Shown: positions 2,233-18,048 of the stretch, one piece after another
Position numbering within the stretch: position 1 is the stretch's first letter
How the letters are laid out: every line of letters begins with the position of its first letter
Virus record (IMG/VR): IMGVR_UViG_3300036766_000125
Coordinates: 1 to 23,630 of that record
Reading direction: 5' to 3' (one strand)
DNA length: 23,630 nucleotides
Origin: a virus
Notes under the pieces: model-generated
Told to the model about the DNA's origin: nothing
What the model saw: the letters and a program-made list of their open reading frames with translations, nothing else
Database searches by the model: none
Position numbers and translations under genes: made by a program

Positions 2233-2332
2233 ACGCCATCGGGTGCTATTACACCATCTGGATCTGGCGGAATCGTTCTGGACCCAGCGCGCAGCCGATC
2301 TGGACAAAAGAATGAGCGATCAAAATGTCTGA
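2159..2332 (+). CDS. 57-residue helical small protein
   Basis: A short reading frame beginning MSLRKKQNPK and ending DKRMSDQNV. It is rich in Lys, Arg, Leu, Glu and Ala with heptad-like spacing (LKAAAKELHERHRVLLHHLDLAE), so it probably forms one long helix or coiled coil. It overlaps the preceding gene by 74 bases and the following ATG (2325) by 8 bases, making it a bridging, coupled gene. No homologue is recognised. It could instead be a chance frame, but the snug overlaps on both sides favour a real gene. Confidence 0.5.
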   Translation: MSLRKKQNPKPRLDRLKAAAKELHERHRVLLHHLDLAESFWTQRAADLDKRMSDQNV

Positions 2333-4004
2333 GCGCATCCGAATCGAAATGCGGTTCAAGAACGCCGCGCTGTTCAATGCGCTGGTCGCGCGCTTCCCAC
2401 CTTATCGGAACCGGCGCAATCAGCGAATCCTTCATGGCTTTAACCATGCAGCCGAGGCCATCGGCGTTTCTTATGGAACGCTATTGTCCTTCCTGAATCT
2501 CAGCCAATGTCCCTGGGCGGCGAATGGGGAACTGCGGCCTCCCGCAGAGAAAGTCATGCTTTACCTGGAAGTCCCTGCGGAAGAACTATTTCCGATTCGA
2601 CTGTACGAATCAAAGATTCCCAAGGCGTTGGCTCGCGAGTTGGATGTCTCCAACCACTTGACGATGCTCGAAGCTCAGAAACAGCATCTACTTCCGCGCT
2701 CGACGGAAGAAATGGATATGCCGCTCGACGGCAAGAACCTGGAAGAATGTCGGAGTGCCATCGAAGATGTGCTGGAAACGCTGATGCCGAGAGAACAACG
2801 GATGGTGAGACTGCGCTTTGGGTTGGAAGATGGAGTGGAACACAGCCAAGAGGAAATCGCAGATCAATTTGCCGTATGCCGGGGCCGGGTTCATCAAATT
2901 ATGAGCAAGGCGCTGCGTAAACTTCGGCATCCTGCGCGGGCTCGGAAACTCAGGGTGTTTTTGGGTGATGCGACGCCGGATGAAATCCAGGCATCCGAGG
3001 AGGCAGTGTTGCCGGCCCCGCCTCCGGGGCAGCGACTGATTTCTTGTGCTCGCTGCCAGACGCCCTTTCTTCCCAAGGGGTTGGAGAAGTATTGCAGTGA
3101 TGATTGCCGCTTTCCTGGACGTGGACCGAAAGTTCCCTGGACGTGTCCGCGCTGTCAGACCGTGATCATGCTGAGTCCTGCGACGGCGGCAGTTCGCAAG
3201 TATTGTACGAGAGCGTGCCATGACGCAGCGAGGATAGAGACGCCGCGGCCTTCGCGGAAAGTGTGGCTTAACGCGACGCAGCGGGAAACACTACAAATCA
3301 TCGCGGTCGACGGGGCCAAGGCTGTTAAATATAAAACTCCCAAATGGACATGGTACGCTCGGAAGCATCCACTCATAATTCTTCGGCGGCAGCGAGGGTC
3401 CGGGTGGGACAGCGAACCGACCTTGGAAACCAAAATCACGACCTTCAATCCGGGCACCATTGCGGTTCTAATAACGCGAGGTCTTATTAAGGAATCGACC
3501 CCGCGTAAGTATCGAGAGGGTATGATGTCCTCGATTCGGATCACGCAAGAGGGCTTGGCGCTTTTGGAGAGCTTCCGTCCCATTGAGTCAGGAGGGTTTA
3601 TGATCTTCGATGCAATCGTGCTGATAGCGGACGACCAGCCGGATGCAGACCACGAACGATTCGTGGCTACCGGGCTGCACTTTGCAGAGATTGTGCCAGT
3701 GCGCGTGCAATTCGATCCGATGCGCCCGGTAGGGCGCGCGGCGCTACGGCTGGAAGGCAATGAAGTCCATGCCCGAGTGGAAATCCCCGACTTCCTGTTG
3801 AAAGATCTGAGCGGCTGCTGGTATCCTGGGGTGGGCGGGTCGATCAAGCGAAAGACTCAACAGGGCGACGTGACGGTGATTGAGGAATGCGAGATCCACG
3901 AGATCAGCCTAGTGCCAAAGGCGAATCCAGACCCGCGGATCAAACCGCTGTTCGACAGCAAGGACCTTGAATTTGCGCCGGAGGGCGCACCGGATAAAAG
4001 CTAG
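2325..4004 (+). CDS. sigma-70 region 4 / zinc-ribbon regulator with C-terminal protease-like domain
   Basis: A 559-residue multidomain protein. Residues 1-90 look like a small helical HTH-type domain. Residues about 153-209 match sigma-70 region 4: LMPREQRMVRLRFGLEDG, then a HTH (EEIADQFAVCRGRVHQIMSKALRKLRHP), the part of sigma that reads the -35 box. Two Cys-rich knuckles follow at about 241-263 and 275-298, each CxxC with a YCxxxC-type second half. A winged-helix-like region covers about 310-415. From residue 426 the tail resembles a HK97-type prohead-protease fold (PVGRAALRLEG, EISLVPKANPDPRI), but the usual His is Phe (VQFDPMRPVGR), so it is probably inactive. A strong internal ribosome site precedes the in-frame ATG at 3600, so a separate 134-residue C-terminal product is likely. 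A transcription role is inferred. Confidence 0.7.
   Translation: MSERIRIEMRFKNAALFNALVARFPPYRNRRNQRILHGFNHAAEAIGVSYGTLLSFLNLSQCPWAANGELRPPAEKVMLYLEVPAEELFPIRLYESKIPKALARELDVSNHLTMLEAQKQHLLPRSTEEMDMPLDGKNLEECRSAIEDVLETLMPREQRMVRLRFGLEDGVEHSQEEIADQFAVCRGRVHQIMSKALRKLRHPARARKLRVFLGDATPDEIQASEEAVLPAPPPGQRLISCARCQTPFLPKGLEKYCSDDCRFPGRGPKVPWTCPRCQTVIMLSPATAAVRKYCTRACHDAARIETPRPSRKVWLNATQRETLQIIAVDGAKAVKYKTPKWTWYARKHPLIILRRQRGSGWDSEPTLETKITTFNPGTIAVLITRGLIKESTPRKYREGMMSSIRITQEGLALLESFRPIESGGFMIFDAIVLIADDQPDADHERFVATGLHFAEIVPVRVQFDPMRPVGRAALRLEGNEVHARVEIPDFLLKDLSGCWYPGVGGSIKRKTQQGDVTVIEECEIHEISLVPKANPDPRIKPLFDSKDLEFAPEGAPDKS
3590..3602 (+). promoter_or_regulatory. internal Shine-Dalgarno and ATG
   Basis: AGGAGG followed after five bases by ATG (3600-3602), in the same frame as the surrounding 559-residue gene. 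This decides the case for a nested second product. Confidence 0.5.
3600..4004 (+). CDS. possible nested C-terminal product from an internal start
   Basis: In-frame ATG at 3600 within the larger sigma-like gene is preceded by a full AGGAGG at about 3590-3595, a better ribosome site than most independent genes here have. The product would be 134 residues (MIFDAIVLIADDQ...), matching exactly the separate C-terminal domain with the prohead-protease-like strand pattern ending EISLVPKANPDPRI. Catalytic His and Ser positions seem to be lost. The upstream part may therefore be an in-frame fusion that still allows independent expression of the tail. Confidence 0.4.
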   Translation: MIFDAIVLIADDQPDADHERFVATGLHFAEIVPVRVQFDPMRPVGRAALRLEGNEVHARVEIPDFLLKDLSGCWYPGVGGSIKRKTQQGDVTVIEECEIHEISLVPKANPDPRIKPLFDSKDLEFAPEGAPDKS

Positions 4005-4029
4005 GTGGTGGAGGCGAAGTCGGCACGTA

Positions 4030-4328
4030 GCACCGGGGTTCCCTAGCTCCCCAAGTACGCTCGTAGACAGCTCATGACTATCCATGCGGACACGGGTTCG
4101 ACTCCCGTCAGGTCCACCATGCGGGCCTGTTCCGGTTTCGACGTGTGCGGTAGGGATGGGGCTAATTCGAGCCGGCCCGGACAAGCCGACGAACTATCTA
4201 AACCAACAAACGCGAAACAGAAACTCGCGCAGGTGGTTACGTTCGCTAAGAACCTGTTCGCTCCAGCAATGGAGCCGCAGCTCATGGCGGCGTAGTTGCC
4301 GGGAGGGGCTGCCGGAAGGTGGCCCCTT
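4030..4328 (+). ncRNA. ssrA: tmRNA, circularly permuted (two-piece)
   Basis: The 3' tRNA-like half comes first: T arm 4092-4108 (ACGGG, loop TTCGACT, CCCGT), acceptor strand CAGGTCC at 4109-4115, then ACCA to 4119. After only three bases the 5' half begins: GGGCCTG at 4123-4129, which pairs perfectly (one G-U) with CAGGTCC, followed by the tmRNA hallmark GGTTTCGACG at 4134-4143. A P2-like helix joins the halves: GGATGG (4154-4159) with CTATCC (4078-4083). The segment GCGGACACGGG before the T loop is typical of tmRNA 3' ends. An A-rich stretch leads to the likely resume codon GCG at 4212 and a 27-codon tag starting AKQKLAQ and ending PQLMAA, stop TAG 4293-4295. A GC hairpin follows (4304-4309/4322-4327). 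Outer ends are approximate. tmRNA with SmpB rescues stalled ribosomes. Permuted genes are known from alphaproteobacteria and some cyanobacteria and betaproteobacteria. Confidence 0.88.
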
Positions 4329-4353
4329 CACTCCAAGTGGAAGGCTGGACGAA

Positions 4354-4575
4354 ATGGAGATATTACCAGCGAATCCTTCGCCTTCCGCCAAGTTATTGGA
4401 AGCGTATCGCATGGGTCTGCACACGCTCTTATGCTACGGCCGGATCTCGATAAACGATGCTCGCCGGCGGCTGGCGGAGTTTGAGTCGCTGGGCGAAGGC
4501 GACGGTAAGCGGGCATTGCGGAGGTTGCTGGCGCTCCGAGACTGTTACCGCAGGTCGCCTGGCAGCCAAATTTGA
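4354..4575 (+). CDS. small hypothetical protein, 73 residues
   Basis: An ATG at 4354 with a GGAAGG-type ribosome site about 10 bases upstream opens a 73-residue frame, MEILPANPSP to RRSPGSQI. The middle is helical and basic (LLEAYRMGLHTLLCYGRISINDARRRLAEFESLG, KRALRRLLALRDCYRR). It sits between the tmRNA and the tRNA-array promoter. No family is recognised; an RNA-associated role would be a guess. The frame also runs upstream through the tmRNA, but that part is not credible as coding. Confidence 0.4.
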   Translation: MEILPANPSPSAKLLEAYRMGLHTLLCYGRISINDARRRLAEFESLGEGDGKRALRRLLALRDCYRRSPGSQI

Positions 4576-4650: not shown

Positions 4651-4726
4651 GCTGGTGTGGCACAGCGGCGACTGCACCGCATTTGTAATGCGGCAATCGA
4701 GGATTCGAGTTCCTCCACCAGCTCCA
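4651..4726 (+). tRNA. tRNA-Thr (TGT)
   Basis: Acceptor GCTGGTG pairs with CACCAGC. Anticodon stem CCGCA/TGCGG with loop TTTGTAA gives TGT, reading ACA. T arm GAGGA/TCCTC. Discriminator T, CCA encoded. First tRNA of the array, just after a candidate promoter. Confidence 0.9.
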
Positions 4727-4889
4727 GAGTTGAAATGTTGAGATTCCCCAAACCCGAAACGAAGCGCGAGCGGCAAGGTAGGCCGTCGATCGCGATGTGC
4801 GCCCATTGGCAGTTTGATCGCACCGTCATAGCGACGAATCCAGGGCGTGGAGGGAGCGGGTAGAATCCAACCAGAATTAGGATTCCAGC
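4727..4889. other. spacer between first tRNA and terminator
   Basis: No tRNA is visible here. A 42-codon frame (ATG 4735, stop by 4863) with a weak ribosome site exists but has no recognisable features. The stretch ends in the terminator at 4890, so the first tRNA may form its own short transcript. Confidence 0.4.
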
Positions 4890-4915
4890 GCCCGCCCTAA
4901 AAAGCGGGCTTTTTT
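4890..4915 (+). terminator. rho-independent terminator
   Basis: Stem GCCCGC (4890-4895) with GCGGGC (4904-4909), loop CCTAAAAA, followed by six T (4910-4915). It separates the tmRNA/first tRNA segment from the main array. Confidence 0.75.
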
Positions 4916-4947
4916 ATTGCTCTTTGACAACTGAAAGAAACGAATAC

Positions 4948-5023
4948 AGGGGAGTGGTCCAGCGGCTACGATGCCGGTCTCCAAAACCGTGCGACGAGAG
5001 TTCGAGTCTCTCCTCCCCTGCCA
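4948..5023 (+). tRNA. tRNA-Trp (CCA)
   Basis: Acceptor AGGGGAG pairs with CTCCCCT. Anticodon loop CTCCAAA gives CCA. T arm GAGAG/CTCTC. Discriminator G, CCA encoded. Confidence 0.88.
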
Positions 5024-5024
5024 A

Positions 5025-5100
<76 letters not shown>

Positions 5101-5101
5101 T

Positions 5102-5193
5102 CCCGGTGAAGTGTACGGTGCACGAACGGTCTTATAAACCGTGAAGCTCCAGATCGGAGCATGGGCTGGGTTCGACTCCCAGCACCGGGACCA
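5102..5193 (+). tRNA. long-variable-arm tRNA with anticodon TAT (nominally Ile)
   Basis: Acceptor CCCGGTG/CACCGGG, A73 and CCA. Anticodon stem ACGGT/ACCGT with loop CTTATAA gives TAT, reading ATA. Between anticodon and T arms is a 23-base variable region with a 5-bp stem GCTCC/GGAGC, the class II form normally reserved for Ser, Leu and Tyr. The D arm is small (GTG/CAC). The amino acid is therefore uncertain: Ile by anticodon, but the body looks like a class II tRNA. Confidence 0.7.
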
Positions 5194-5200
5194 AGATTTC

Positions 5201-5277
5201 GCCTCCGTCGTTCAATGGACTAGGACACCACGCTACGAACGTGGAGATTGGGGGTTCAACTCCTCTCGGGGGCACCA
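5201..5277 (+). tRNA. tRNA-Arg (ACG)
   Basis: Acceptor GCCTCCG/CGGGGGC, anticodon stem CCACG/CGTGG with loop CTACGAA, anticodon ACG (A34, expected to be edited to inosine). A73, CCA encoded. T arm contains G-U pairs. Confidence 0.9.
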
Positions 5278-5283
5278 AGTAGT

Positions 5284-5362
5284 GGGCGCGTGCGGCCAAC
5301 TGGATCGGCCACCAGCCTCCTAAGCTGGCGATATGTGAGTTCGAATCTCACCGCGCCTTCCA
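5284..5362 (+). tRNA. tRNA-Arg (CCT)
   Basis: Acceptor GGGCGCG/CGCGCCT, anticodon stem CCAGC/GCTGG with loop CTCCTAA, anticodon CCT reading AGG. T arm GTGAG/CTCAC. Discriminator T, CCA encoded. Confidence 0.9.
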
Positions 5363-5363
5363 T

Positions 5364-5437
5364 GCCGGGCTCATCTAACGGCAAGATGTGCGCCCGATTA
5401 GCGCAACATCGGGGTTCAAGTCCTCGGCTCGGCACCA
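5364..5437 (+). tRNA. tRNA-Ile (GAT), C33
   Basis: Acceptor GCCGGGC/GCTCGGC, anticodon stem TGCGC/GCGCA with loop CCGATTA, anticodon GAT. Position 33 is C instead of the near-universal U. A73, CCA encoded. Starts one base after the previous tRNA ends. Confidence 0.87.
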
Positions 5438-5438
5438 C

Positions 5439-5513
5439 TCCGGTCTATCACAATGGTCGTGAAACGCACTGTTAATGCGTGTTATCTCCGTTCGAGTCGG
5501 AGGGCCGGAGCCA
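5439..5513 (+). tRNA. tRNA-Asn (GTT)
   Basis: Acceptor TCCGGTC/GGCCGGA, anticodon stem ACGCA/TGCGT with loop CTGTTAA, anticodon GTT. G73, usual for Asn, and CCA. T arm CTCCG/CGGAG. Confidence 0.92.
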
Positions 5514-5518
5514 GATTC

Positions 5519-5594
5519 GGGGTCAAGGTGTTACTGGCAGCACACTCGCCTTTTAAGCGATGAGGTCGGGATTCGAATTCCCGTGGCCCCACCA
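5519..5594 (+). tRNA. tRNA-Lys (TTT)
   Basis: Acceptor GGGGTCA/TGGCCCC, anticodon loop CTTTTAA, anticodon TTT. T arm CGGGA/TCCCG. A73, CCA encoded. Confidence 0.9.
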
Positions 5595-5595
5595 G

Positions 5596-5669
5596 GCTGC
5601 GATAGCTAAGTGGCAGAGCCGCTGACTCGTAACCAGCAGACCGGAGTTCGATTCTCCGTCGCAGCTCCA
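5596..5669 (+). tRNA. tRNA-Thr (CGT)
   Basis: Acceptor GCTGCGA/TCGCAGC, anticodon loop CTCGTAA, anticodon CGT reading ACG. T arm CGGAG/CTCCG. Discriminator T as in the other Thr tRNAs here, CCA encoded. Confidence 0.9.
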
Positions 5670-5670
5670 C

Positions 5671-5746
5671 GGTGACTGAACCCAAACGGTGCGGGGCCTG
5701 TCTGTGGAACAGGTTCTAGCGAGTTCAACTCTCGTCAGTCACCCCA
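5671..5746 (+). tRNA. tRNA-His (GTG)
   Basis: Acceptor GTGACTG/CAGTCAC, anticodon stem CCTGT/ACAGG with loop CTGTGGA, anticodon GTG. The encoded G-1 (5671) opposite C73 is the histidine identity pair. CCA encoded. Confidence 0.93.
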
Positions 5747-5754
5747 AGTTTTCG

Positions 5755-5831
5755 GCCCCTGTGGCGCAGTGGACCAGCGCGGCTCCCTCCGAAGGAGCAG
5801 GTCATCGGTTCGAATCCGATCAGGGGTTCCA
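5755..5831 (+). tRNA. tRNA-Arg (CCG)
   Basis: Acceptor GCCCCTG/CAGGGGT, anticodon stem GCTCC/GGAGC with loop CTCCGAA, anticodon CCG reading CGG. T arm ATCGG/CCGAT. CCA encoded. Confidence 0.92.
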
Positions 5832-5832
5832 G

Positions 5833-5906
5833 GCTGGCGTAGCTCAGTGGCAGAGCCGTCGCATGGTAAGCGACAGATCCGAGTCCGATTCTCGGCGCTA
5901 GCTCCA
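5833..5906 (+). tRNA. tRNA-Thr (GGT), T loop with C55
   Basis: Acceptor GCTGGCG/CGCTAGC, anticodon stem GTCGC/GCGAC with loop ATGGTAA, anticodon GGT. T loop is TCCGATT, so position 55 is C rather than U/pseudouridine. Discriminator T, CCA encoded. Confidence 0.9.
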
Positions 5907-5908
5907 TT

Positions 5909-5984
5909 GCAGGCGTAGCTCAATCGGCAGAGCAAGCGGCTCTTAACCGCGAGGTTCGGGGTTCAACTCCCCGCGCCTGCACCA
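5909..5984 (+). tRNA. tRNA-Lys (CTT)
   Basis: Acceptor GCAGGCG/CGCCTGC, anticodon stem GCGG/CCGC with loop CTCTTAA, anticodon CTT reading AAG. Standard D and T arms. A73, CCA encoded. Confidence 0.92.
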
Positions 5985-5989
5985 GATTT

Positions 5990-6068
5990 GCCCGGTTAGC
6001 TCAGACGGGTTATGAGCACTGGTCCTACAAACCAGAGGTCCCGGAATCCCAAGCCGGACTGGGCACCA
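5990..6068 (+). tRNA. tRNA-Val (TAC) with aberrant T arm and C33
   Basis: Acceptor GCCCGGT/ACTGGGC, A73 and CCA. Anticodon stem CTGGT/ACCAG with loop CCTACAA gives TAC; position 33 is C. The T arm lacks TTC: CCGG (6041-6044) pairs with CCGG (6054-6057) around AATCCCAAG. It may be a decaying or non-standard tRNA, and it is the only valine tRNA seen. Confidence 0.72.
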
Positions 6069-6072
6069 GATT

Positions 6073-6148
6073 GGGGGCATAGTGTTTAACGGGAGCACGC
6101 TAGTCCTGCAAACTAGAAGTGAGGGTTCGACTCCCTCTGCCTCCACCA
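6073..6148 (+). tRNA. tRNA-Ala (TGC), C33
   Basis: Acceptor GGGGGCA/TGCCTCC, anticodon stem CTAGT/ACTAG with loop CCTGCAA, anticodon TGC. Position 33 is C. T arm GAGGG/CCCTC. A73, CCA encoded. Acceptor pair 3:70 is G-T (GGGGGCA positions 1-7 G-C, G-C, G-T), which is the G3-U70 identity element of alanine tRNAs. Confidence 0.9.
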
Positions 6149-6156
6149 ATGTTTGA

Positions 6157-6230
6157 GCGGCCATAGTTCAGTGGTAGAATGGCGCTTTGCCAAGGCGCAG
6201 ACGCGGTTTCGATTACCGCTGGCCGCTCCA
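6157..6230 (+). tRNA. tRNA-Gly (GCC)
   Basis: Acceptor GCGGCCA/TGGCCGC, anticodon stem GCGCT/GGCGC with loop TTGCCAA, anticodon GCC. U73 and CCA fit glycine. T arm GCGGT/ACCGC. Confidence 0.92.
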
Positions 6231-6231
6231 G

Positions 6232-6305
6232 GCGGGTGTCGTACAATGGCAGTACCGCAGTCTTCCAAACTGCTGATGCCGGTCCGATTCCGGTCACCCG
6301 CTCCA
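6232..6305 (+). tRNA. tRNA-Gly (TCC), C55
   Basis: Acceptor GCGGGTG/CACCCGC, anticodon stem GCAGT/ACTGC with loop CTTCCAA, anticodon TCC. T loop TCCGATT has C55. U73, CCA encoded. One base after the previous tRNA. Confidence 0.92.
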
Positions 6306-6310
6306 AGTTT

Positions 6311-6386
6311 CAGGGTGTAGGGTAACTGGTAGCCCACCTGCCTTGGGAGCAGGTAATTGGAGGTTCAAATCCTCTCACCCTGACCA
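6311..6386 (+). tRNA. tRNA-Pro (TGG)
   Basis: Acceptor CAGGGTG/CACCCTG, anticodon stem CCTGC/GCAGG with loop CTTGGGA, anticodon TGG. T arm GGAGG/CCTCT. A73, CCA encoded. Confidence 0.92.
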
Positions 6387-6461
6387 CGGGGTCTAGGCCA
6401 ATGGTAAGCCACCTGCCTCGGGCGCAGGTATGTCCCGGTCCGATTCCGGGGACCCCGACCA
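6387..6461 (+). tRNA. tRNA-Pro (CGG), C55
   Basis: Acceptor CGGGGTC/GACCCCG, anticodon stem CCTGC/GCAGG with loop CTCGGGC, anticodon CGG. T loop TCCGATT has C55. A73, CCA encoded. It follows tRNA-Pro (TGG) with no spacer, and their anticodon stems are identical, suggesting duplication. Confidence 0.92.
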
Positions 6462-6468
6462 AGATTGA

Positions 6469-6544
6469 TGCGGGCTAGAACTCTGGTGAGTTTAGCGGTC
6501 TCATAAGCCGCCAAAGGCGGGTCCGATTCCCGTGCCCGCTACCA
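6469..6544 (+). tRNA. tRNA-Met (CAT)
   Basis: Anticodon stem GCGGT/GCCGC with loop CTCATAA, anticodon CAT. Acceptor TGCGGGC/GCCCGCT leaves T1 opposite T72 unpaired. T loop TCCGATT has C55. The D arm is compact (AACTC/GAGTT around TGGT). A73, CCA encoded. Elongator, initiator or modified Ile (CAU) cannot be separated with confidence; it lacks the three G-C pairs of bacterial initiators. Confidence 0.82.
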
Positions 6545-6550
6545 AATTAC

Positions 6551-6625
6551 GGCCTTGTCGTCCACTGGTTAAGATGCCAGATTCTCAATCTGGAGAACCG
6601 AGTTCGATTCTCGGCAGGGCTACCA
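6551..6625 (+). tRNA. tRNA-Glu (CTC)
   Basis: Acceptor GGCCTTG/CAGGGCT, anticodon stem CCAGA/TCTGG with loop TTCTCAA, anticodon CTC reading GAG. T arm CCGAG/CTCGG. A73, CCA encoded. Confidence 0.92.
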
Positions 6626-6626
6626 C

Positions 6627-6703
6627 GGGCATGTAGGGGAGCGGCCGTCCCCGGTGGCTTGTCACGCCACAGACCGCCGGTTCAAATCCGGTCATGCCCG
6701 CCA
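6627..6703 (+). tRNA. tRNA-Asp (GTC)
   Basis: Acceptor GGGCATG/CATGCCC, anticodon stem GTGGC/GCCAC with loop TTGTCAC, anticodon GTC. G73, the Asp discriminator, then CCA. One base after the previous tRNA. Confidence 0.93.
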
Positions 6704-6710
6704 AGATTGT

Positions 6711-6788
6711 ACGGTGGAAGGCGAAGTGGTCGAGCCCTCACTCTTTCAAAGTGAGCATTAGCGGGTTCAAGTCCCGTCCACCGTACCA
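6711..6788 (+). tRNA. tRNA-Glu (TTC)
   Basis: Acceptor ACGGTGG/CCACCGT, anticodon stem TCACT/AGTGA with loop CTTTCAA, anticodon TTC. T arm GCGGG/CCCGT. A73, CCA encoded. Confidence 0.92.
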
Positions 6789-6789
6789 C

Positions 6790-6866
6790 GCGCCCGTGGT
6801 CCAACGGAGCAGGGCGCCGCGCTTCTAACGCGGACGATGCGAGTTCAAGTCTCGCCGGGCGTTCCA
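6790..6866 (+). tRNA. tRNA-Arg (TCT)
   Basis: Acceptor GCGCCCG/CGGGCGT, anticodon stem CCGCG/CGCGG with loop CTTCTAA, anticodon TCT reading AGA. T arm GCGAG/CTCGC. CCA encoded. Fourth Arg tRNA; the inserted HNH gene follows. Confidence 0.92.
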
Positions 6867-6878
6867 CTTTGAGGGAAG

Positions 6879-7424
6879 ATGATGAGCGACACTCTTGTTC
6901 TCGACATGCAGGGCTTTCCAGTCGCGTTCGTATCCTGGCGGCGCGCCGTCAACTTGCAATGGCAGGACCGGGCGGTGGTGGTGTCTGAGGATGCGCAGCG
7001 GATCTTGCGCTCCCCTTCGTTCGAAATGGGATTGCCGCGCGTCATCAAACTGCGGAACCATATCAGCCGGAAGCTGCGGCTAAAGGTTCCCATGACGCGG
7101 CGCAACATCGCGGTGCGTGACAACAGCTCTTGCCAATACTGCGGGGAGCTGCTGGAGACGCCGGAGTACACGGTCGACCATGTGCTGCCGAGAAGCCGTG
7201 GGGGCAAGTCGGTCTGGACGAACCTGGCCCTCGCCTGCGTGCGGTGCAATAAGCGGAAGTCGAATTGCCTTCCGCATGAGGCGGGTCTTACGCTCCGACA
7301 GAAGCCGGTGGAGCCCAATCAATTTGACCCGCGGTTCAATTTCCGCTTGCACATCAAGGTGCTGCGGCCGGAGTGGAAGGACTACGCGCCCTACATCTAC
7401 TGGAACGTCGAATTGGAGAAGTAA
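6879..7424 (+). CDS. HNH endonuclease inserted in the tRNA array
   Basis: A 181-residue HNH nuclease of the stand-alone family whose N-terminus reads like LVLDMQGFPVAFVSWRRAV, a beta-rich lead domain, followed by the catalytic core: CQYC at residues 85-88, DH at 100-101 followed by a SRGGKSVWTNLALAC stretch, then CVRCNKRK. The two CxxC pairs bind structural zinc; His101 and the downstream Asn are the expected catalytic residues. ATG 6879 (a second ATG at 6882) has a GAGGGA ribosome site 6-8 bases upstream. It begins 12 bases after tRNA-Arg and its TAA stop is immediately followed by the first base of tRNA-Phe. It is probably a mobile free-standing homing-type nuclease that settled in the array, though family members with cellular roles exist. 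Confidence 0.9.
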   Translation: MMSDTLVLDMQGFPVAFVSWRRAVNLQWQDRAVVVSEDAQRILRSPSFEMGLPRVIKLRNHISRKLRLKVPMTRRNIAVRDNSSCQYCGELLETPEYTVDHVLPRSRGGKSVWTNLALACVRCNKRKSNCLPHEAGLTLRQKPVEPNQFDPRFNFRLHIKVLRPEWKDYAPYIYWNVELEK

Positions 7425-7500
7425 CCCCGGTGAGCAAGCGCGGTCGTTGCGACGGTCTGAAAAGCCGTAGAGTCCCGTTCGACTCGGGGACCGGGGACCA
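7425..7500 (+). tRNA. tRNA-Phe (GAA)
   Basis: Acceptor CCCCGGT/ACCGGGG, anticodon stem ACGGT/GCCGT with loop CTGAAAA, anticodon GAA. A73, CCA encoded. Its first base follows the TAA of the HNH gene with no gap, so transcript processing must cut precisely at the stop codon. Confidence 0.9.
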
Positions 7501-7501
7501 T

Positions 7502-7575
7502 TCTGGCCTCGTCTAATGGTAGGACGGCTGACTTTGACTCAGCTAATCTTGGTTCGATTCCAGGGGCCAGAACCA
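7502..7575 (+). tRNA. tRNA-Gln (TTG)
   Basis: Acceptor TCTGGCC/GGCCAGA, anticodon stem GCTGA/TCAGC with loop CTTTGAC, anticodon TTG. T arm CTTGG/CCAGG. A73, CCA encoded. Confidence 0.92.
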
Positions 7576-7576
7576 T

Positions 7577-7651
7577 TGCGAGATCGTCTAACTGGTAGGA
7601 CGCCGGGCTCTGAACCCGGTAATGTTGGTTCGACTCCAGCTCTCGCAGCCA
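7577..7651 (+). tRNA. tRNA-Gln (CTG)
   Basis: Acceptor TGCGAGA/TCTCGCA, anticodon stem CCGGG/CCCGG with loop CTCTGAA, anticodon CTG reading CAG. T arm GTTGG/CCAGC. G73, CCA encoded. One base after the previous tRNA. Confidence 0.92.
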
Positions 7652-7668
7652 AATTCACCTTGCTTATT

Positions 7669-7692
7669 CCACAGGCTGGTGTTAGCCTGTGG
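7669..7692 (+). other. 9-bp stem-loop after tRNA-Gln
   Basis: CCACAGGCT (7669-7677) pairs with AGCCTGTGG (7684-7692) around GGTGTT. There is no T run, so it is more likely a processing or stability element than a terminator. The rest of this 185-base spacer has only a 24-codon frame (ATG 7710) of unlikely significance. Confidence 0.5.
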
Positions 7693-7804
7693 CTGACACG
7701 GACAGACGCATGAGAATCTTATCCTCCTCGCTCTTGCTATCATCGCTGAGTTATCTCAGCCGGGATCGAGGGGGTGGCGCGTAAAGTCCAAGGATTTCTC
7801 GACA

Positions 7805-7831
7805 GGCCGCCCCTCAAAAGGCGGCCTTTTT
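7805..7831 (+). terminator. rho-independent terminator within the array
   Basis: Stem GGCCGCC (7805-7811) with GGCGGCC (7820-7826), A-rich loop, then five T. It divides the main array from the last seven tRNAs, yet the next tRNA starts six bases later, so read-through or a promoter inside the spacer is implied. Confidence 0.8.
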
Positions 7832-7836
7832 GTTTT

Positions 7837-7911
7837 GCGCGGCTGGTCAAATGGCAAAGGCGCTCGGCTCAAACCCGAGAGATTCTGTGGGTTCGACTCC
7901 CACGCCGCGCA
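7837..7911 (+). tRNA. tRNA-Leu (CAA), short variable arm, no encoded CCA
   Basis: Acceptor GCGCGGC/GCCGCGC, anticodon stem CTCGG/CCGAG with loop CTCAAAC, anticodon CAA. Variable region only 7 bases (7880-7886), unlike the long arm of bacterial Leu tRNAs. After A73 the DNA reads CGG, so CCA is not encoded; the next tRNA starts two bases after A73. Confidence 0.85.
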
Positions 7912-7912
7912 C

Positions 7913-8002
7913 GGGAGCGTGGCTCAGTGGCGACGGCAGCGGCCTGTAAAGCCGCCACCCCACGGGGAAACACCGCAGGTTCGACTCCTGCCGCTCCCAC
8001 CA
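7913..8002 (+). tRNA. tRNA-Tyr (GTA), class II
   Basis: Acceptor GGGAGCG/CGCTCCC, anticodon stem GCGGC/GCCGC with loop CTGTAAA, anticodon GTA. Long variable arm with a CCCC/GGGG stem, normal for bacterial Tyr. A73, CCA encoded. Confidence 0.92.
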
Positions 8003-8009
8003 AGATTGT

Positions 8010-8088
8010 GCCGGGATGGTCAAATTGGCAAAGGCGCTCCGTTCAGACCGGAGAGATTTTGCGAGTTCGAGTCTCGCTCCCGGCACCA
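8010..8088 (+). tRNA. tRNA-Leu (CAG), short variable arm
   Basis: Acceptor GCCGGGA/TCCCGGC, anticodon stem CTCCG/CGGAG with loop TTCAGAC, anticodon CAG. Variable region 7 bases (8054-8060), class I size. The D arm is Leu-like and nearly identical to that of the CAA tRNA at 7837. A73, CCA encoded. Confidence 0.88.
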
Positions 8089-8096
8089 AAGGTTAG

Positions 8097-8173
8097 GCGC
8101 AGGTGACGCAATCGGCAGACGTGCCAGTTCGAGAGACTGGATTTTGGAGGTTCGAATCCTCTCCTGCGCACCA
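8097..8173 (+). tRNA. tRNA-Leu (GAG), short variable arm, C33
   Basis: Acceptor GCGCAGG/CCTGCGC, anticodon stem CCAGT/ACTGG with loop TCGAGAG, anticodon GAG. Position 33 is C. Variable region only 5 bases. A73, CCA encoded. Confidence 0.85.
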
Positions 8174-8178
8174 AGATC

Positions 8179-8267
8179 GGAGAGCGAGGCAGACGGTAAG
8201 CCAGCGCACTGCTAACGCGCCAACTGCCGAAAGGTAGAACTGGGTTCGACTCCCAGGCTCTCCGCCA
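8179..8267 (+). tRNA. tRNA-Ser (GCT), class II
   Basis: Acceptor GGAGAGC/GCTCTCC, anticodon loop CTGCTAA, anticodon GCT reading AGC/AGT. Long variable arm as expected for Ser. T arm CTGGG/CCCAG. G73, CCA encoded. Confidence 0.92.
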
Positions 8268-8272
8268 TGATT

Positions 8273-8358
8273 GGAGGGCGCTGCTGAATGGCCGGCAACT
8301 GGTCCTGAAAACCAGGGACGGGTGACACCGTGGGGTTCGATTCCTCCGTCCTCCGCCA
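8273..8358 (+). tRNA. tRNA-Ser (TGA), class II, C33
   Basis: Acceptor GGAGGGC/GTCCTCC, anticodon stem CTGGT/ACCAG with loop CCTGAAA, anticodon TGA. Position 33 is C. Long variable arm (CGGTG-type hairpin). G73, CCA encoded. Confidence 0.9.
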
Positions 8359-8363
8359 ACTTT

Positions 8364-8441
8364 GGGAGTGTAGCAGAACTGGCATATGCGGGAGGCTTAA
8401 ACCCTCCGTCCATGTGGGTCCGAATCCCACCACTCCCACCA
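8364..8441 (+). tRNA. tRNA-Leu (TAA), short variable arm, C55
   Basis: Acceptor GGGAGTG/CACTCCC, anticodon stem GGAGG/CCTCC with loop CTTAAAC, anticodon TAA. Variable region 6 bases (8408-8413). T loop TCCGAAT has C55. A73, CCA encoded. Last tRNA of the array. Confidence 0.88.
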
Positions 8442-8796: not shown

Positions 8797-9320
8797 AGAT
8801 TGATTGGGAGGAATTTGAAGCTCTGTGTGCCATTCAGGCCACTTTAGAAGAAATGGCGATGGTCTTGAAGTGCTCCGACAGGACCATCGAGCGCGCCTGC
8901 CAGCGGCACTACAAAATGAATTTTGTCAGCATATTCGCCTTAAAGCGTAGAAGGGGACATATATCGCTCCGGCGACGCATCTGGACGGCCGCTTTGAACG
9001 GCAACACATCCCTTTTAATTTTCCTCGCAAAGCAGTATCTTGGGATGGCCGAACGACTTGACGTGAGGCTCCCGGGGGGGCAGCCACTGAATGACCAACG
9101 AGACATCTCCCGACTCTCCGACGAACAGCTCATCCACTACAAATTCCTTAACGCCATCAGCGCAGGACTCGACCCCGCTCTTGCCGCCGAGCAATACGCC
9201 GCCGCCCTCGCCAAGCTCCCCAAAGAAACACCGAGTGCCGGAAGCCCCGGAGCTGACAGATCATCAGATCGACGTGGTGATGTCGAAGAGACACCTCCTC
9301 CCGTTCGTCCAGTTAACTAA
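8769..9320 (+). CDS. terS: terminase small subunit (putative)
   Basis: A 183-residue protein with an N-terminal HTH (about residues 20-45, LEEMAMVLKCSDRTIERAC) and a central segment SLLIFLAKQYLGMAERLD that is characteristic of phage small terminase subunits, which recognise the packaging site and regulate the large subunit. The C-terminal 40 residues are Pro/Ser/Asp rich. Starts at TTG 8769 because the HTH lies upstream of the first ATG (8853). Its last 230 bases overlap the large-subunit gene in another frame, which explains both the odd tail here and the odd head there. Confidence 0.75.
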   Translation: MAQRGRKRIEIDWEEFEALCAIQATLEEMAMVLKCSDRTIERACQRHYKMNFVSIFALKRRRGHISLRRRIWTAALNGNTSLLIFLAKQYLGMAERLDVRLPGGQPLNDQRDISRLSDEQLIHYKFLNAISAGLDPALAAEQYAAALAKLPKETPSAGSPGADRSSDRRGDVEETPPPVRPVN

Positions 9321-11091
9321 GCCCGATTATGTCGCCGATAGGTTCCACGTGGAACTCTGCAATATCGTGGAAGAATTCCACCGGCGCGTCCAACGCAAAG
9401 AGTCACCCCGCACCATCATCGTCTCGCACCCGCAGTCCGGCAAGTCTCAGATCGTCAGCCGCCAGTATCCTTCCTGGGCCATGGGTTTGAACCCGGAATA
9501 CTGTTTAATTGGATCCAGTTACAACCAAGATTGGGCCAACGGGCTGTGCGGCGACATCCAGCGCATCATGGACACCGAGGAATACCATGAGGTCTTTCCC
9601 AATTCGTTTATTCCGCCCAGGGGTTCCGGCCTGGGGGCGCGCCGCAGCGATTACTTCGAGCTGGTCGGCCTGGGCGGACGTTACAAAGCCGCGGGCCGTG
9701 GTGCCGCTCCGGCCGGACGCCCTGCACACGTCCTGATCATCGACGACTTCTTGAAGGGTGCGGACGAAGCGATGTCCGAGACAATCCGCGAAGCCGCCTG
9801 GCAGAGCTACGTCCAAGACCTCCGGCCCCGTGTGCAAAGGGGCGGTGGCATCCTCATGATGTTCACCCGCTGGCACTTGGACGACCCGATCGGCCGGGCC
9901 CTCGACAATGCAGCCAAGGGCGGGGAGAAGTGGGACGTCCATGTTTTCCCCGCAATCGCCCAGGAGGACGGCAAAGATTGGCGAAAGAAGGGCGAAGCTT
10001 TGGCGCCCTCCCGCTTCAATGAAACAGACCTGGCTGCCATTAAGAGTGTACTGCCGGCAGCAGCCTGGGCGGCACTATACGAGGGCGACCCGATCCCACT
10101 CACGGGCAACATCCTGCCTCGCGACAAGTGGAAATACTATGGCGGGCCCGGGCAGCCAGCCTTCCCGGACATGCGGCAATTCGACGTGTTCGTTTCGACT
10201 TGGGACGCGAGCTTCAAGGACACGATGGGCAGCGACTTTTGCTGCGGCCAGGTGTGGGGCGTGCGGGGCGCGGAATTCTGGCTGCTCCTGAATGGCTACA
10301 TTTTCGAGCAGATGTCTTACACGGCCTTCAAGCAGGCCATCCGGCAGCAATCCTACGAGCATCCCTACATCAGCTTCAAGCTTATCGAGGAAACGGCCAA
10401 CGGCGTGGCGGTGATCAATGAACTGCAATCGGAACTCGGCGGCATCACTGCCATCAATCCTTCGGGTGGCAAGATCGCGCGCGCCTGGGCTGCCTCGGCG
10501 GACCTCTGCGCCGGCAACTGCTACCTGCCCGACCCTTCGATCGCCCCCTGGGTCGGTGCGTTCGTGACGCGATGCTCGCGCTTTCCGGGCGACCTGGGCA
10601 AGTCGGGGACCGACGATGATATCGACGCCTGGACTCAAATGGTGAATCACATGCGCCTGCATACGCACCCTCTCATTGAGATTTGGAAGGAGCAATTCGA
10701 GAAGCGCCGGGAGGCCGAAGCCAAGGCCAAGGAAGAACTCGCGGCATTTCCCGAATCTTCCGCGCCTGAGACGATTGTGGCTGTTCCTGAGACGGTAGCG
10801 GCCCCTGGTGAAACAGTTCCAATTAAAATTGAGACAAAACCGCGAGAAAGTGCTACAAGAGAGAACCCAGCGATAGTTCGTGAACTGGCTCAAGCGCAAA
10901 AGGTAGCCGCCGCAAGGAGCGGGATCTTCGGCGCGGAAAAGTTTACTGACGTGAACAAAGTCACGACTTCCACACTGGTCAAGCCTGCTACAAATCCCAA
11001 GACTCCACGTTGCCCACAGTGCGGTGGCCTCATGTCCAAATATGGCGACGTGGAAGTGTGCAACAACTGTCGAGGGAAAAAGCAGGGATGA
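9091..11091 (+). CDS. terL: terminase large subunit (ATPase-nuclease)
   Basis: The packaging motor, 666 residues. The ATPase half has Walker A at 112-120 (SHPQSGKSQ), Walker B VLIIDD at 214-219 and the coupling motif TRWH at 259-262. The nuclease half has the acidic pattern of the RNase H-like terminase nuclease: D372 in WDASFKD, E433 region in LIEETANG, and DDDIDAW near 510-514. A Glu/Ala/Pro-rich linker (about 545-630) leads to a C-terminal zinc ribbon, CPQCG...CNNC (about 642-661), unusual for terminases. The first ~60 residues are Ser/Thr/Pro-rich and overprint the small-subunit gene; an in-frame ATG at 9280 gives a more typical length. A G-run before ATG 9091 may serve as ribosome site. 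The stop overlaps the next ATG. Confidence 0.93.
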   Translation: MTNETSPDSPTNSSSTTNSLTPSAQDSTPLLPPSNTPPPSPSSPKKHRVPEAPELTDHQIDVVMSKRHLLPFVQLTKPDYVADRFHVELCNIVEEFHRRVQRKESPRTIIVSHPQSGKSQIVSRQYPSWAMGLNPEYCLIGSSYNQDWANGLCGDIQRIMDTEEYHEVFPNSFIPPRGSGLGARRSDYFELVGLGGRYKAAGRGAAPAGRPAHVLIIDDFLKGADEAMSETIREAAWQSYVQDLRPRVQRGGGILMMFTRWHLDDPIGRALDNAAKGGEKWDVHVFPAIAQEDGKDWRKKGEALAPSRFNETDLAAIKSVLPAAAWAALYEGDPIPLTGNILPRDKWKYYGGPGQPAFPDMRQFDVFVSTWDASFKDTMGSDFCCGQVWGVRGAEFWLLLNGYIFEQMSYTAFKQAIRQQSYEHPYISFKLIEETANGVAVINELQSELGGITAINPSGGKIARAWAASADLCAGNCYLPDPSIAPWVGAFVTRCSRFPGDLGKSGTDDDIDAWTQMVNHMRLHTHPLIEIWKEQFEKRREAEAKAKEELAAFPESSAPETIVAVPETVAAPGETVPIKIETKPRESATRENPAIVRELAQAQKVAAARSGIFGAEKFTDVNKVTTSTLVKPATNPKTPRCPQCGGLMSKYGDVEVCNNCRGKKQG

Positions 11092-11858: not shown

Positions 11859-13673
11859 ATGGGCCTCTTTGATAGGCTGCGCGGCAAGACGCTGATTAAC
11901 GAATCTCTGGTCAAGACTCCAAAGAATCTTCCCCCCGGAGCGCAAGTTCTGCAAATCCCCACGGTCTTGAATCTCCCCCAAATTGGGCCCACAGGGGGTT
12001 CTCACGTTGTCAGCGATGTCGTGACGAGCATGTGGTTCTCGGCCTTGCAACCGATCAAGCCGATGGCTCCCACCGGGCAGCGCGTCCGTGGCTTCGAGAT
12101 CCAGCCAGGTGCGAACATTGTCTGGACGCCCAAGACCGAGGTGGAAGGAACGGGCCCAGGCTATGCGATTCTCCGCGAGTTCGCCAACTCGTGGGACTTG
12201 CTGCGCTTGGTCATTGAAACCGTGAAAGATCGTTTGACCACGCCCCAATGGGAATTCCGGCTCATCGAAAAGAAAGGCGAAAAGAAAGGCGATTACAAGA
12301 GGCGGAACGCCGAGGACGTGCGCATCGAGCAGCTCACAAAGTTTTTCAAAGCTCCGGACGCCGAACACTGCTTTGCCGACTGGCTACGCCCCTTGCTCGA
12401 AGACATGCTTGTGATCGATGCCGCCAGCATCTATTTAGAACGCGACTTGAAAGGCCGCGTCGCCAACTTGCGCGTAATTGATGGAGGCACGATCGGTCGG
12501 ATGCTGACTGACCAAGGCTTCACTCCACCACCACCCCAGGTGGCTTATCAGCAGGTTCTCTACGGGCTGCCGGCGCACGATCTGACCACCGACGAACTGG
12601 TCTATGCCATGCGCAACCCGCGGACTAACCGGCGCTATGGCTTCTCGCCCGTCGAGCAGATGATGGTCACGATCGCCATTGGCCTCAGCCGGCAGAAGTT
12701 TACCTTGAACTATTATACCGATGGGAATATGCCCGAGGCGCTCTGCTTCCTGCCCCAGGACGTTCCCATCCAGCGTATCCGCGAAGTGCAAGAGTGGTTT
12801 GACTCGATCCTCGCGGGCGACCTGGCCAAGCGGCGCCGGCTCACCTTCCTGCCTGGCTACGGTTCGGGTAAGGATACGAAGCCGAACATCATCTTCCCTA
12901 AGGAAGTCCTACTCAAAGACTCGATGGATGAATGGCTGTGGCAAGTAGCTTGCTATGCGATGGGCACCACACCCCAAGCTATGCTCCGCATGATGAACCG
13001 CGCGACCGCCCAGCAGTCGGCGGAGTCTTCTGAGGAAGAAGGTCTCGAGCCCAAGAAAATCTGGATTGCGAATACTTTGAACGTCATCATCCAGCAGAAG
13101 ATGAAGTTCGAGGATCTCGAATTTGCTTGGAAGCAGGCGCGGGAAGTCGATATCGTCAAGCAGGCCACGGTGGACAAGATTTATATTTCTTGCGGCGTGC
13201 ACACCATCAATGAAACGAAGGACGCTTTGGGAGAGGACCGGTTCACTTTCCCCGAAGCCGACGAGCCCGGGATCTTGACGCAGAATGGGTTCGTGCCGCT
13301 CACGGCTGGCATCGTGAATCAACCTGGTGCAGCCGGATCGGGCAAGGGACCCGCTGCTCAACACCTGATCAGCAACCTCGAAGATCACCATGCGGCCCAG
13401 GAAGAAAAGCAACAGACACAGGGCGAAGTCGCACATGGCCGCGCGCTCGAGCTGCAAGGGGCCAAAGGTCCGGCCAAAGAAGAAGTTGCGCCGAAGAAGC
13501 CGGCACCCAAGCCGCCATCAAAGCTCAAAGGCAAGGCGTTTGAACTCAAAGCCCCATCCGGGAATGGACATGGTCACTGCGAGAAGCACGAGAAATATGC
13601 TGACGGGTGTTTTGTGTGTGCGCTTGCAGAACTGCATCGCGTGGAAGAACTCTACGAATTGATCGAGACATGA
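11859..13673 (+). CDS. portal protein
   Basis: A 604-residue portal of the large phage-portal superfamily, the dodecameric ring at the head vertex through which DNA passes. Supporting features are the position directly after the terminase, segments such as LVIETVKDRL, DELVYAMRNPRTNRRYGFSPVE, a long stem/wing region and LLKDSMDEWLWQVACYAMG. The core ends near residue 490. A Lys/Pro/Ala-rich linker (about 500-570) then leads to a C-terminal Cys/His knuckle, GHCEKHEKY...CFVC, an addition not typical of portals. Good start at ATG 11859 with GAAGGA upstream. The stop overlaps the next ATG (ATGA). Confidence 0.85.
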   Translation: MGLFDRLRGKTLINESLVKTPKNLPPGAQVLQIPTVLNLPQIGPTGGSHVVSDVVTSMWFSALQPIKPMAPTGQRVRGFEIQPGANIVWTPKTEVEGTGPGYAILREFANSWDLLRLVIETVKDRLTTPQWEFRLIEKKGEKKGDYKRRNAEDVRIEQLTKFFKAPDAEHCFADWLRPLLEDMLVIDAASIYLERDLKGRVANLRVIDGGTIGRMLTDQGFTPPPPQVAYQQVLYGLPAHDLTTDELVYAMRNPRTNRRYGFSPVEQMMVTIAIGLSRQKFTLNYYTDGNMPEALCFLPQDVPIQRIREVQEWFDSILAGDLAKRRRLTFLPGYGSGKDTKPNIIFPKEVLLKDSMDEWLWQVACYAMGTTPQAMLRMMNRATAQQSAESSEEEGLEPKKIWIANTLNVIIQQKMKFEDLEFAWKQAREVDIVKQATVDKIYISCGVHTINETKDALGEDRFTFPEADEPGILTQNGFVPLTAGIVNQPGAAGSGKGPAAQHLISNLEDHHAAQEEKQQTQGEVAHGRALELQGAKGPAKEEVAPKKPAPKPPSKLKGKAFELKAPSGNGHGHCEKHEKYADGCFVCALAELHRVEELYELIET

Positions 13674-16383: not shown

Positions 16384-18048
16384 ATGAGCGTTGCAGAGCT
16401 GGTCAAAGGCACGTTCGGGAAAACGCATGAGGGCGCGTTGCTGGCGTGGGAGACGCGCGACCGTGGCGGCAAACCAACGGACGTTTCCACCTGGAAGCGA
16501 GTGGGCCCGCAGCAAGGCTCGAACCCAGGTGGCCTATTCGAAGCTCCAGACGGCACGCGCTACTACGTGAAATTCCCACAGACCAACTCTGAACAGGTCC
16601 GCTCTGAGCAGCTTGCCAACAGCATCTATCACGCCTTGGACGTCCCGGTACCGGGAACTCAGCTCATTACCGGGCACGTCGGCTGGGGTGAGGCCGGCAA
16701 CCTTGGCATTGCCAGCAAGATGCTGGACGCGGAACCCATGACGCGCGAGGAAATCGAAAAGAGCGATGATGTGCGCGCTGGTTTTCTGGCCGACGCTTTC
16801 CTCGCCAATCACGATGTCATGGGCGCCGGCTACGATAACATCCTGCACGGTGCGGATGGGCGCGACTATCGAGTGGACAACGGCGGCTCGATGTTCTACC
16901 GCGCCCAAGGCTCGACCAAGGACTTTGACGCCGACCAGGTCTCGCAAATTGACAGTATGCGGGATCCGGAAATGGCTCGAGAAGCTGGCCGCATCTTCGC
17001 TGGGCTCGATAACGCCGAGCTGCACGCGCAGGCGTTGCGGTTGGTTCACTATCTGCCCGACACGAAGATCAAGAGTTTGGTGCAAGCGGCCGGGCTGCCC
17101 ACGAAATATGCGGCGGCGCTGATTGGCCGGCGCAACGCGATCGCGGACCGCTTCAAGATTCGCAGGCCGACGGAGTACAAGGTTCAGAAAACGCACGAGG
17201 GAGCGATTGCCGCCTGGGAGACGCGACGCCGAGCCGCGGAGGGCCTGACCGAAAAACCGCTGGCTCCAAAGAACGAATGGGGCCATCGTACAGAGTTGGA
17301 ACAACTTAGATTGGAGCGCCAAGTCAAGGAAGCCAGCCAGCTTACGCAAAAGCAATATCTGGCGAGTCAGCATGGCACGAAATATAAGGATTCCCTGGGA
17401 AGGGATGAAACCTGGTCCGGGAAAGATCACGAGATCCGGACTGCTAAATACTGGCATGAAATGGCGGTAAAGTGGGCAATGAATCATGGAATCCATGTGC
17501 CCAAGGCTGTGCTCAAAGACTATTCGTTGGGGAAAACTCACGAAGGCGCGCTGCGCGCCTGGGAGACGCGGCAGCGTGCCAAGCCTAAAGCACCGAAGGC
17601 GGACGCCTCCGAACAAGAGCGGCGCCGGGCGGCCGCGTTCAAGAACTTCAAGCCACAGACTGAGGAAAAGGAACTTATTGCCCACGAAAGTGAACAGCGC
17701 GTGGCCGCAGCCCTCGGTGGGGAAGCCACGACCGACGCGCACCCTATGGACATTTGGTGGCCGTCGACTGCCAATCCCCAGGTCGGGATTGAGGTAAAAA
17801 CTTTGATCGGGGCTGACATTACAAATGTCAGGGTCAATATGAGACCAGCCTGCCGCACTGAGAAAATTGAAGCGTTAGGCAATAAACGCGGTTTTGTTGT
17901 GCTCCTTGACCAGCGTGGACGCACGAGCCTGAGTGATCGAAATTTCACGGAGCACATTTTCATTAAAGAGGGGATGGGTGCTTGGAGACTATCAACCATG
18001 CAGGAGGTGAAATCGTTGAGTGAACTCAAGCGATCACTGCTAAAATAG
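16384..18048 (+). CDS. HipA/PI-kinase-like domain fused to a PD-(D/E)XK nuclease
   Basis: A 554-residue modular protein in which each module follows a copy of the shared tag. Tag 1 at 13-30 precedes a kinase-like domain (about 40-260): VKF with K63, an NHDVMGAGYDN loop (D144, D151, N152) and RVDNGGS (D165), the pattern of HipA / phosphatidylinositol-kinase-like folds. Tag 2 (269-283) precedes an ~95-residue unknown basic helical region. Tag 3 (384-398) precedes a nuclease domain (about 420-540): a SEQRVAAALGGEATTDAHPMD run with D456, then GIEVKT with E470 and K472, the D-ExK core of restriction-type nucleases. Encoded between portal and the Mu F protein, so probably head-associated. The kinase target and nuclease substrate cannot be told. 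Confidence 0.75.
   Translation: MSVAELVKGTFGKTHEGALLAWETRDRGGKPTDVSTWKRVGPQQGSNPGGLFEAPDGTRYYVKFPQTNSEQVRSEQLANSIYHALDVPVPGTQLITGHVGWGEAGNLGIASKMLDAEPMTREEIEKSDDVRAGFLADAFLANHDVMGAGYDNILHGADGRDYRVDNGGSMFYRAQGSTKDFDADQVSQIDSMRDPEMAREAGRIFAGLDNAELHAQALRLVHYLPDTKIKSLVQAAGLPTKYAAALIGRRNAIADRFKIRRPTEYKVQKTHEGAIAAWETRRRAAEGLTEKPLAPKNEWGHRTELEQLRLERQVKEASQLTQKQYLASQHGTKYKDSLGRDETWSGKDHEIRTAKYWHEMAVKWAMNHGIHVPKAVLKDYSLGKTHEGALRAWETRQRAKPKAPKADASEQERRRAAAFKNFKPQTEEKELIAHESEQRVAAALGGEATTDAHPMDIWWPSTANPQVGIEVKTLIGADITNVRVNMRPACRTEKIEALGNKRGFVVLLDQRGRTSLSDRNFTEHIFIKEGMGAWRLSTMQEVKSLSELKRSLLK
16420..16473 (+). repeat. tag motif copy 3 (before kinase)
   Basis: Encodes KTHEGALLAWETRDRGGK near the N-terminus. 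The trailing DRGGK is shared with copy 1, also N-terminal in its protein. Confidence 0.9.
17188..17232 (+). repeat. tag motif copy 4 (after kinase)
   Basis: Encodes KTHEGAIAAWETRRR at the end of the kinase-like domain. Confidence 0.9.
17533..17577 (+). repeat. tag motif copy 5 (before nuclease)
   Basis: Encodes KTHEGALRAWETRQR immediately before the PD-(D/E)XK nuclease domain. Confidence 0.9.

Follow-up and report, generated by a model that had tools for sequence, protein, structure and literature searches.

A phage-borne, beta-like circularly permuted tmRNA gene with a three-base spacer and a 27-residue tag

Two-piece tmRNAs of phages are an established finding: of 133 unique tmRNA structures from phages, a study of 2022 called 53 two-piece, 50 of these 53 coming from marine or aquatic phages (PMC9004378), and a database of 2025 reports 11,946 permuted genes and 79 phage sequences, with 10 residues as the most frequent tag length (PMC11915505). 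The methylophage Melnitz and the pelagimyophages have a permuted tmRNA as well as tRNAs in their genomes, and the Melnitz tmRNA belongs to the alphaproteobacterial type, with a glutamine riboswitch linked to it (PMC9004378). The mycobacteriophages of cluster C1, namely Bxz1 and its kin (PMC4131195), among them Lethe with 34 tRNAs and one tmRNA (PMC13097058), combine a tmRNA with a large tRNA array. The DNA analysed here, called the window in the following, is a 23,630-base IMG/VR virus fragment that was taken as a whole. It shares the permuted phage tmRNA and the presence of tRNAs with Melnitz and the pelagimyophages, but its tmRNA is beta-like and accompanied by a large tRNA array, and no riboswitch match was obtained for the window. 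The large array is a feature in common with the cluster C1 mycobacteriophages. In the permuted tmRNA of betaproteobacteria (RF01850, RF04321) the same gene order, G3-U70 acceptor stem, GGUUUCGACG motif, P2 across the permutation and resume region are found; the chromosomal betaproteobacterial genes seen in this study have spacers of 4 or about 24-42 nt and a tag of 10 residues, whereas the window gene has 3 nt and 27 residues. The tmRNA genes of cluster C1 mycobacteriophages are of the standard form, while the window gene is permuted.

The locus is very probably a phage-borne, beta-like circularly permuted tmRNA gene whose product would be processed by the host into two pieces and would use the host SmpB to rescue ribosomes. 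As a kind of gene it is largely ordinary and well identified, with two extreme traits, the spacer and the tag, both also present in other genes.

Gene form and pairing

In a profile search against Rfam, positions 4059-4249 matched RF04321 (tmRNA_permuted) over its full length (positions 1-213) with 73.4 bits and an E-value of 1.3e-12, the cut-off of the family being 47 bits. ARAGORN independently predicted a permuted tmRNA (tmRNA*) at 4027-4386 with the tag AKQKLAQVVTFAKNLFAPAMEPQLMAA. Both place the acceptor half 5' of the coding half with an intervening sequence between them, the arrangement of the permuted form. The circularly permuted tmRNA suggested by a preliminary description was thus confirmed, and the covariance-model check proposed there returned the whole model and not merely a tRNA fragment. 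The parts of the gene are:

4059-4119, plus strand: acceptor piece (tmRNA 3' half) with P2 strands, GGAC, T arm, acceptor strand and ACCA; start from RF04321 (ARAGORN: 4027)
4092-4108, plus strand: T arm, from the sequence
4109-4115, plus strand: acceptor 3' strand CAGGUCC, from the sequence
4116-4119, plus strand: encoded ACCA, from the sequence, the CCA being 4117-4119
4120-4122, plus strand: intervening TGC (UGC), presumed to be removed; from the sequence, and placed by the RF04321 alignment between CCA and G1
4123-4295, plus strand: coding piece as far as the stop codon of the tag, from the RF04321 and RF01850 alignments and pairing probabilities
4123-4129, plus strand: acceptor 5' strand GGGCCUG including G3-U70, from the sequence
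4134-4143, plus strand: GGUUUCGACG, from the sequence
4142-4150, plus strand: P2 5' strand, from the RF04321 alignment
4212-4295, plus strand: tag reading frame AKQKLAQVVTFAKNLFAPAMEPQLMAA, 27 residues, stop TAG; from ARAGORN, start aligned to the resume codon of RF04321
4296-4386, plus strand: remaining 3' portion of the coding piece, containing a GC-rich hairpin at about 4302-4329, from the fold; predicted end 4386 from ARAGORN

The outer ends of both pieces (4059 or 4027; 4386) are set by the programs and not fixed by the sequence. The sequence hallmarks, the ACCA reaching to 4119 and the 5' half beginning at 4123 had been described exactly to the base. All seven pairs form between the acceptor strands, including G3-U70 (U 4113 opposite G 4125), and in the unsplit precursor the fold computation assigned each of the seven a probability >0.99. 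A G-U third pair is an identity element for alanine. P2 joins both pieces, 4082-4088 pairing with 4142-4150 and 4059-4063 with 4168-4172, and no non-standard pairs were flagged in the RF04321 alignment; full acceptor pairing and a P2 across the permutation, as read before from the letters, were both recovered. Among the matches listed, the acceptor strands of 53 distinct permuted genes co-vary (356 of 371 cells paired versus no more than 320 in any of 1000 shuffles), and G3-U70 is present in 48 of the 53. The T-loop plus CAGGYCCNCCA pattern has one exact match in the window, for a chance expectation of 0.09 even if three mismatches are allowed. A chance origin is excluded by this single exact match of the 3' end together with the acceptor covariation over 53 genes.

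The best clade-specific model was RF01850 (betaproteobacterial tmRNA, beta_tmRNA), matched partially (positions 77-166 of 331) with 49.6 bits against a gathering score of 84; we therefore term the window gene beta-like and not a member of RF01850. L059, a contig from a related phage that has a homologous portal and a 3-nt spacer, passes RF01850 over the full length with 84.2 bits. Standard tmRNA (RF00023) had no match in the window in the Rfam search, and a standard tmRNA whose 3' end would lie further downstream was rejected, no such second 3' end being present in the window. The tmRNA region also gave a YrlA-like hit (16.5 bits, cut-off 69), which was discarded as a fortuitous similarity to the T arm.

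The three-base spacer

Only TGC separates the two halves, as had been noted and as the sequence and the RF04321 alignment confirm; 3 nt is the shortest spacer among the matches listed in the survey of similar genes. The implied rarity of so short a join did not hold, since viral contigs commonly have spacers of 3-7 nt and 4 nt occur in chromosomal genes of the Rhodocyclaceae type. When 2.9 million viral contigs were scanned for a permuted gene order with a spacer of 0-30 nt, 78 other contigs were recovered, the spacer lengths peaking at 3-5 nt and 27-29 nt. After removal of redundancy and with pairing required, spacers of 3, 4 and 5 nt were frequent among the matches listed in a looser viral scan (0-12 nt). 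Besides the window, at least four other distinct genes have a 3-nt spacer (L012, L053 with L071, L059, L144), which rules out uniqueness. Spacers of 0-2 nt were absent from the viral matches listed once register errors and one contig (L172) had been set aside: apparent 2-nt spacers were due to a register error in GGGGGTG stems and have a true length of 4, and the '3-nt' case of L172 is a standard tmRNA within a tRNA array. The exact pattern, with 0-5 nt allowed, occurred in 84,980 cellular genomes at 11 places, seven of the Rhodocyclaceae type (4 nt, tags of the ANDE.FA.AA kind), one in a Dyella prophage (5 nt) and three false; L083, L085 and L086 were rejected as not being permuted tmRNA. All survey counts are lower bounds, because the patterns demand exact motifs. 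A published minimum length of tmRNA spacers was not found in a limited literature search.

The tRNA genes of the window's own array lie 0-1 nt apart; in contrast, the tmRNA spacer was never shorter than 3 nt among the survey matches listed. Because the spacer of a permuted gene has to bridge the acceptor end of that gene in a closed loop, it may reasonably be hypothesised that the 3-nt minimum would reflect a steric limit for RNase P. In the proposed working, a single transcript would present the acceptor half first, and its acceptor stem would close a loop of 7 nt (ACCA plus UGC). The host RNase P would cut 5' of G4123, 3' exonucleases of the host would trim the UGC back to the CCA, and the acceptor stem and P2 would keep the two pieces associated. 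Alternatively, the precursor may stay uncut at the three-base join and act as a whole, e.g., as an SmpB-tying competitor like the tRNA-like RNA of DS6A. The loop is merely 7 nt, the removal of a very short acceptor-loop intervening sequence has been called open for a 1-nt permuted archaeal tRNA (PMC3978253), and inhibition of tmRNA by a phage RNA that is tRNA-like only is possible (PMC4131195). Such a role is nevertheless very unlikely, for acceptor pairing, encoded CCA, resume region and open tag frame are kept in the window gene and the related genes with 3-5 nt, and the chromosomal Rhodocyclaceae-type genes have a 4-nt spacer, one of them (L090) being the sole permuted gene there, with no standard tmRNA above the cut-off.

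The long tag

The tag begins with GCG 4212 and comprises 27 codons up to TAG 4293-4295; its C-terminus is LMAA, not the common ALAA. ARAGORN and the resume-codon alignment agree here with the preliminary description. Its statement that the tag is longer than most stands against the commonest length of 10 (PMC11915505), but tags of 20-33 residues recur among the surveyed permuted genes, and 16 of 69 distinct tags among the matches listed have 21-33 residues. The extra length lies in the middle of the tag, since the start aligns with the resume region and the end, UGGCGGC-stop, resembles those in the viral contigs L037 and L059. The window tag is closer to other long tags than its shuffled versions are (P about 0.013-0.019), its nearest neighbours being those of L037 and L053, and about ten long viral tags among the matches listed look alike. 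These comparisons lend modest support to a single lineage of long tags. A close homologue for testing selection on the tag was not found. The IMG/VR contigs L059, L037 and L053 resemble the window in spacers of 3-4 nt, L037 and L059 also in portals homologous to that of the window, and L037 and L053 in tags of 27-28 residues; unlike the window, they have no large tRNA array in the parts examined, and the letters of their tags differ. In four viral tmRNAs with a 27-nt spacer (L002, L026, L054, L068) the ARAGORN tag GKADEWIFMGSVGG ends in GG instead of AA, possibly a miscalled frame.

The permuted tmRNA of the Dyella prophage (L088, Dyella sp. AtDHG13, NZ_QICJ01000013) has the 5-nt spacer CCTAC and the ARAGORN tag GAKPIDANDNVYDQAIAA, whose true start may be at ANDN. 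It lies among ERF, YqaJ and S24 repressor genes in a prophage-like region, and the host genome carries its own standard tmRNA (197 bits). Thus the phage form can differ from the host form. Phages might have evolved a compact two-piece tmRNA of their own, with a spacer worn down to the RNase P floor of about 3 nt and a long-tag lineage (K-[VL]-[VL]-[AT]-F ... M-A-A, 20-33 residues) setting a non-host fate, a possible but rather doubtful extension. The preliminary description is upheld in part: the kind of gene, its permuted order, the three-base join, the length of the tag and the phage context are borne out, but the rarity implied there is not, as phage two-piece tmRNA has been published (PMC9004378), and 3-7 nt spacers and long tags recur among other surveyed genes.

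Phage setting and proposed ribosome rescue

The main neighbours of the tmRNA gene are:

2325-4004, plus strand: sigma-70 region 4 domain protein gene, just upstream of the tmRNA (PF04545, phrog_351)
4651-8441, plus strand: tRNA array directly downstream of the tmRNA, 33 genes by ARAGORN plus tRNA-His(GTG), 34 in all (ARAGORN, Rfam)
9091-11091, plus strand: terminase large subunit (phrog_38, 1e-79; PF17289)
11859-13673, plus strand: portal protein (phrog_2662, 9.6e-50; by tblastn related to portals in L037, L059 and L093)

The contig is identified as phage DNA by its genes for terminase, portal and Mu F-like head proteins, in agreement with the earlier assignment. The tmRNA match begins about 55 bases past the end of the gene for the sigma-70 region 4 protein. 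The tRNA-His(GTG) at about 5671-5746 was missed by ARAGORN and matched by Rfam (RF00005, 44.1 bits); a tRNA-Val was found in the window by neither. With CCA encoded in 32 of the 33 ARAGORN tRNAs and many genes 1 nt apart (at least 11 neighbouring pairs, besides one clear 0-nt case), tightly packed precursors are the rule in the array. Searches with terminase and portal yielded only distant relatives of 28-41% identity, the portal of L059 sharing 28%. Among named phages, no close tmRNA was obtained at E-values up to 1e-5 for three short-spacer queries, the window query giving T-arm matches only.

Several other genes of the window were noted. A TROVE-domain (Ro60/Rsr-like) gene at 184-1536 (PF05731, 1.7e-13) lies upstream of the tmRNA and the tRNA array; relatives with 49-67% identity are situated among tRNA genes in the viral contigs L178, L180, L182, L183 and L184, the last also with a permuted tmRNA (spacer about 118 nt), so that TROVE, tRNA array and tmRNA may be a recurring phage RNA module. 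An HNH endonuclease gene within the array (6879-7424) resembles the free-standing homing endonucleases of such arrays and has relatives near tRNA arrays in L022, L076, L180, L183 and L184. The large head-morphogenesis protein at 18340-20922 combines a Mu F-like end with a 2'-5' RNA ligase-type domain (PF13563) in its middle. A NUDIX domain is present in a 783-residue ORF (13607-15955) within the structural gene block; the KTHEGALRAWE motif of this ORF is found again in the ORF 16384-18048.

A decayed or passenger copy without function could account for an RF04321 score of 73 bits, compared with 156-166 for the cellular genes, and for the result that no promoter-like site was found near the tmRNA gene. 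It is highly improbable, given that no element is broken, pairing is full and the tag is open, that the gene is placed directly upstream of a 34-gene tRNA array, and that related phage contigs keep the gene with acceptor stems that have diverged and still pair. A tRNA gene or 3' fragment lying by chance just 5' of a standard tmRNA, an arrangement that also matched the pattern in L086 (tRNA-Lys) and L083, where a standard tmRNA directly follows tRNA sequence, and is paralleled by the standard tmRNA in the tRNA array of L172, deserves hardly any credence and stands refuted by the match to the whole of RF04321 and the 7/7 acceptor pairs, besides the lack in the window of an RF00023 match, of a second matching 3' end and, by ARAGORN and Rfam, of a tRNA body upstream of the T arm.

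For a functional two-piece tmRNA, AlaRS would charge the acceptor piece via G3-U70, the host SmpB and EF-Tu would deliver the tmRNA to stalled ribosomes, and the 27-residue tag would be added with release at TAG. An SmpB gene was found neither in the window record nor in 24 other viral records, the same search being positive in ten bacterial control genomes. The host SmpB is the likely partner because the record has no SmpB gene; as the record is a fragment, such a gene outside it is possible. The likely benefit of ribosome rescue during infection would be that ribosomes are kept free when mRNAs break, in analogy to the proposal for Melnitz (PMC9004378), and both retagging and the freeing of ribosomes are plausible functions of a phage tmRNA. 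With the window, the phages known for two-piece tmRNA gain a lineage of beta-like type whose phage has a large tRNA array. Together with its relatives the gene forms a natural spacer series from 3 nt upwards, which makes the minimum cuttable acceptor-loop spacer testable, and the shared long tags could be used to examine whether retagging by phages gives proteins a fate specific to the phage.
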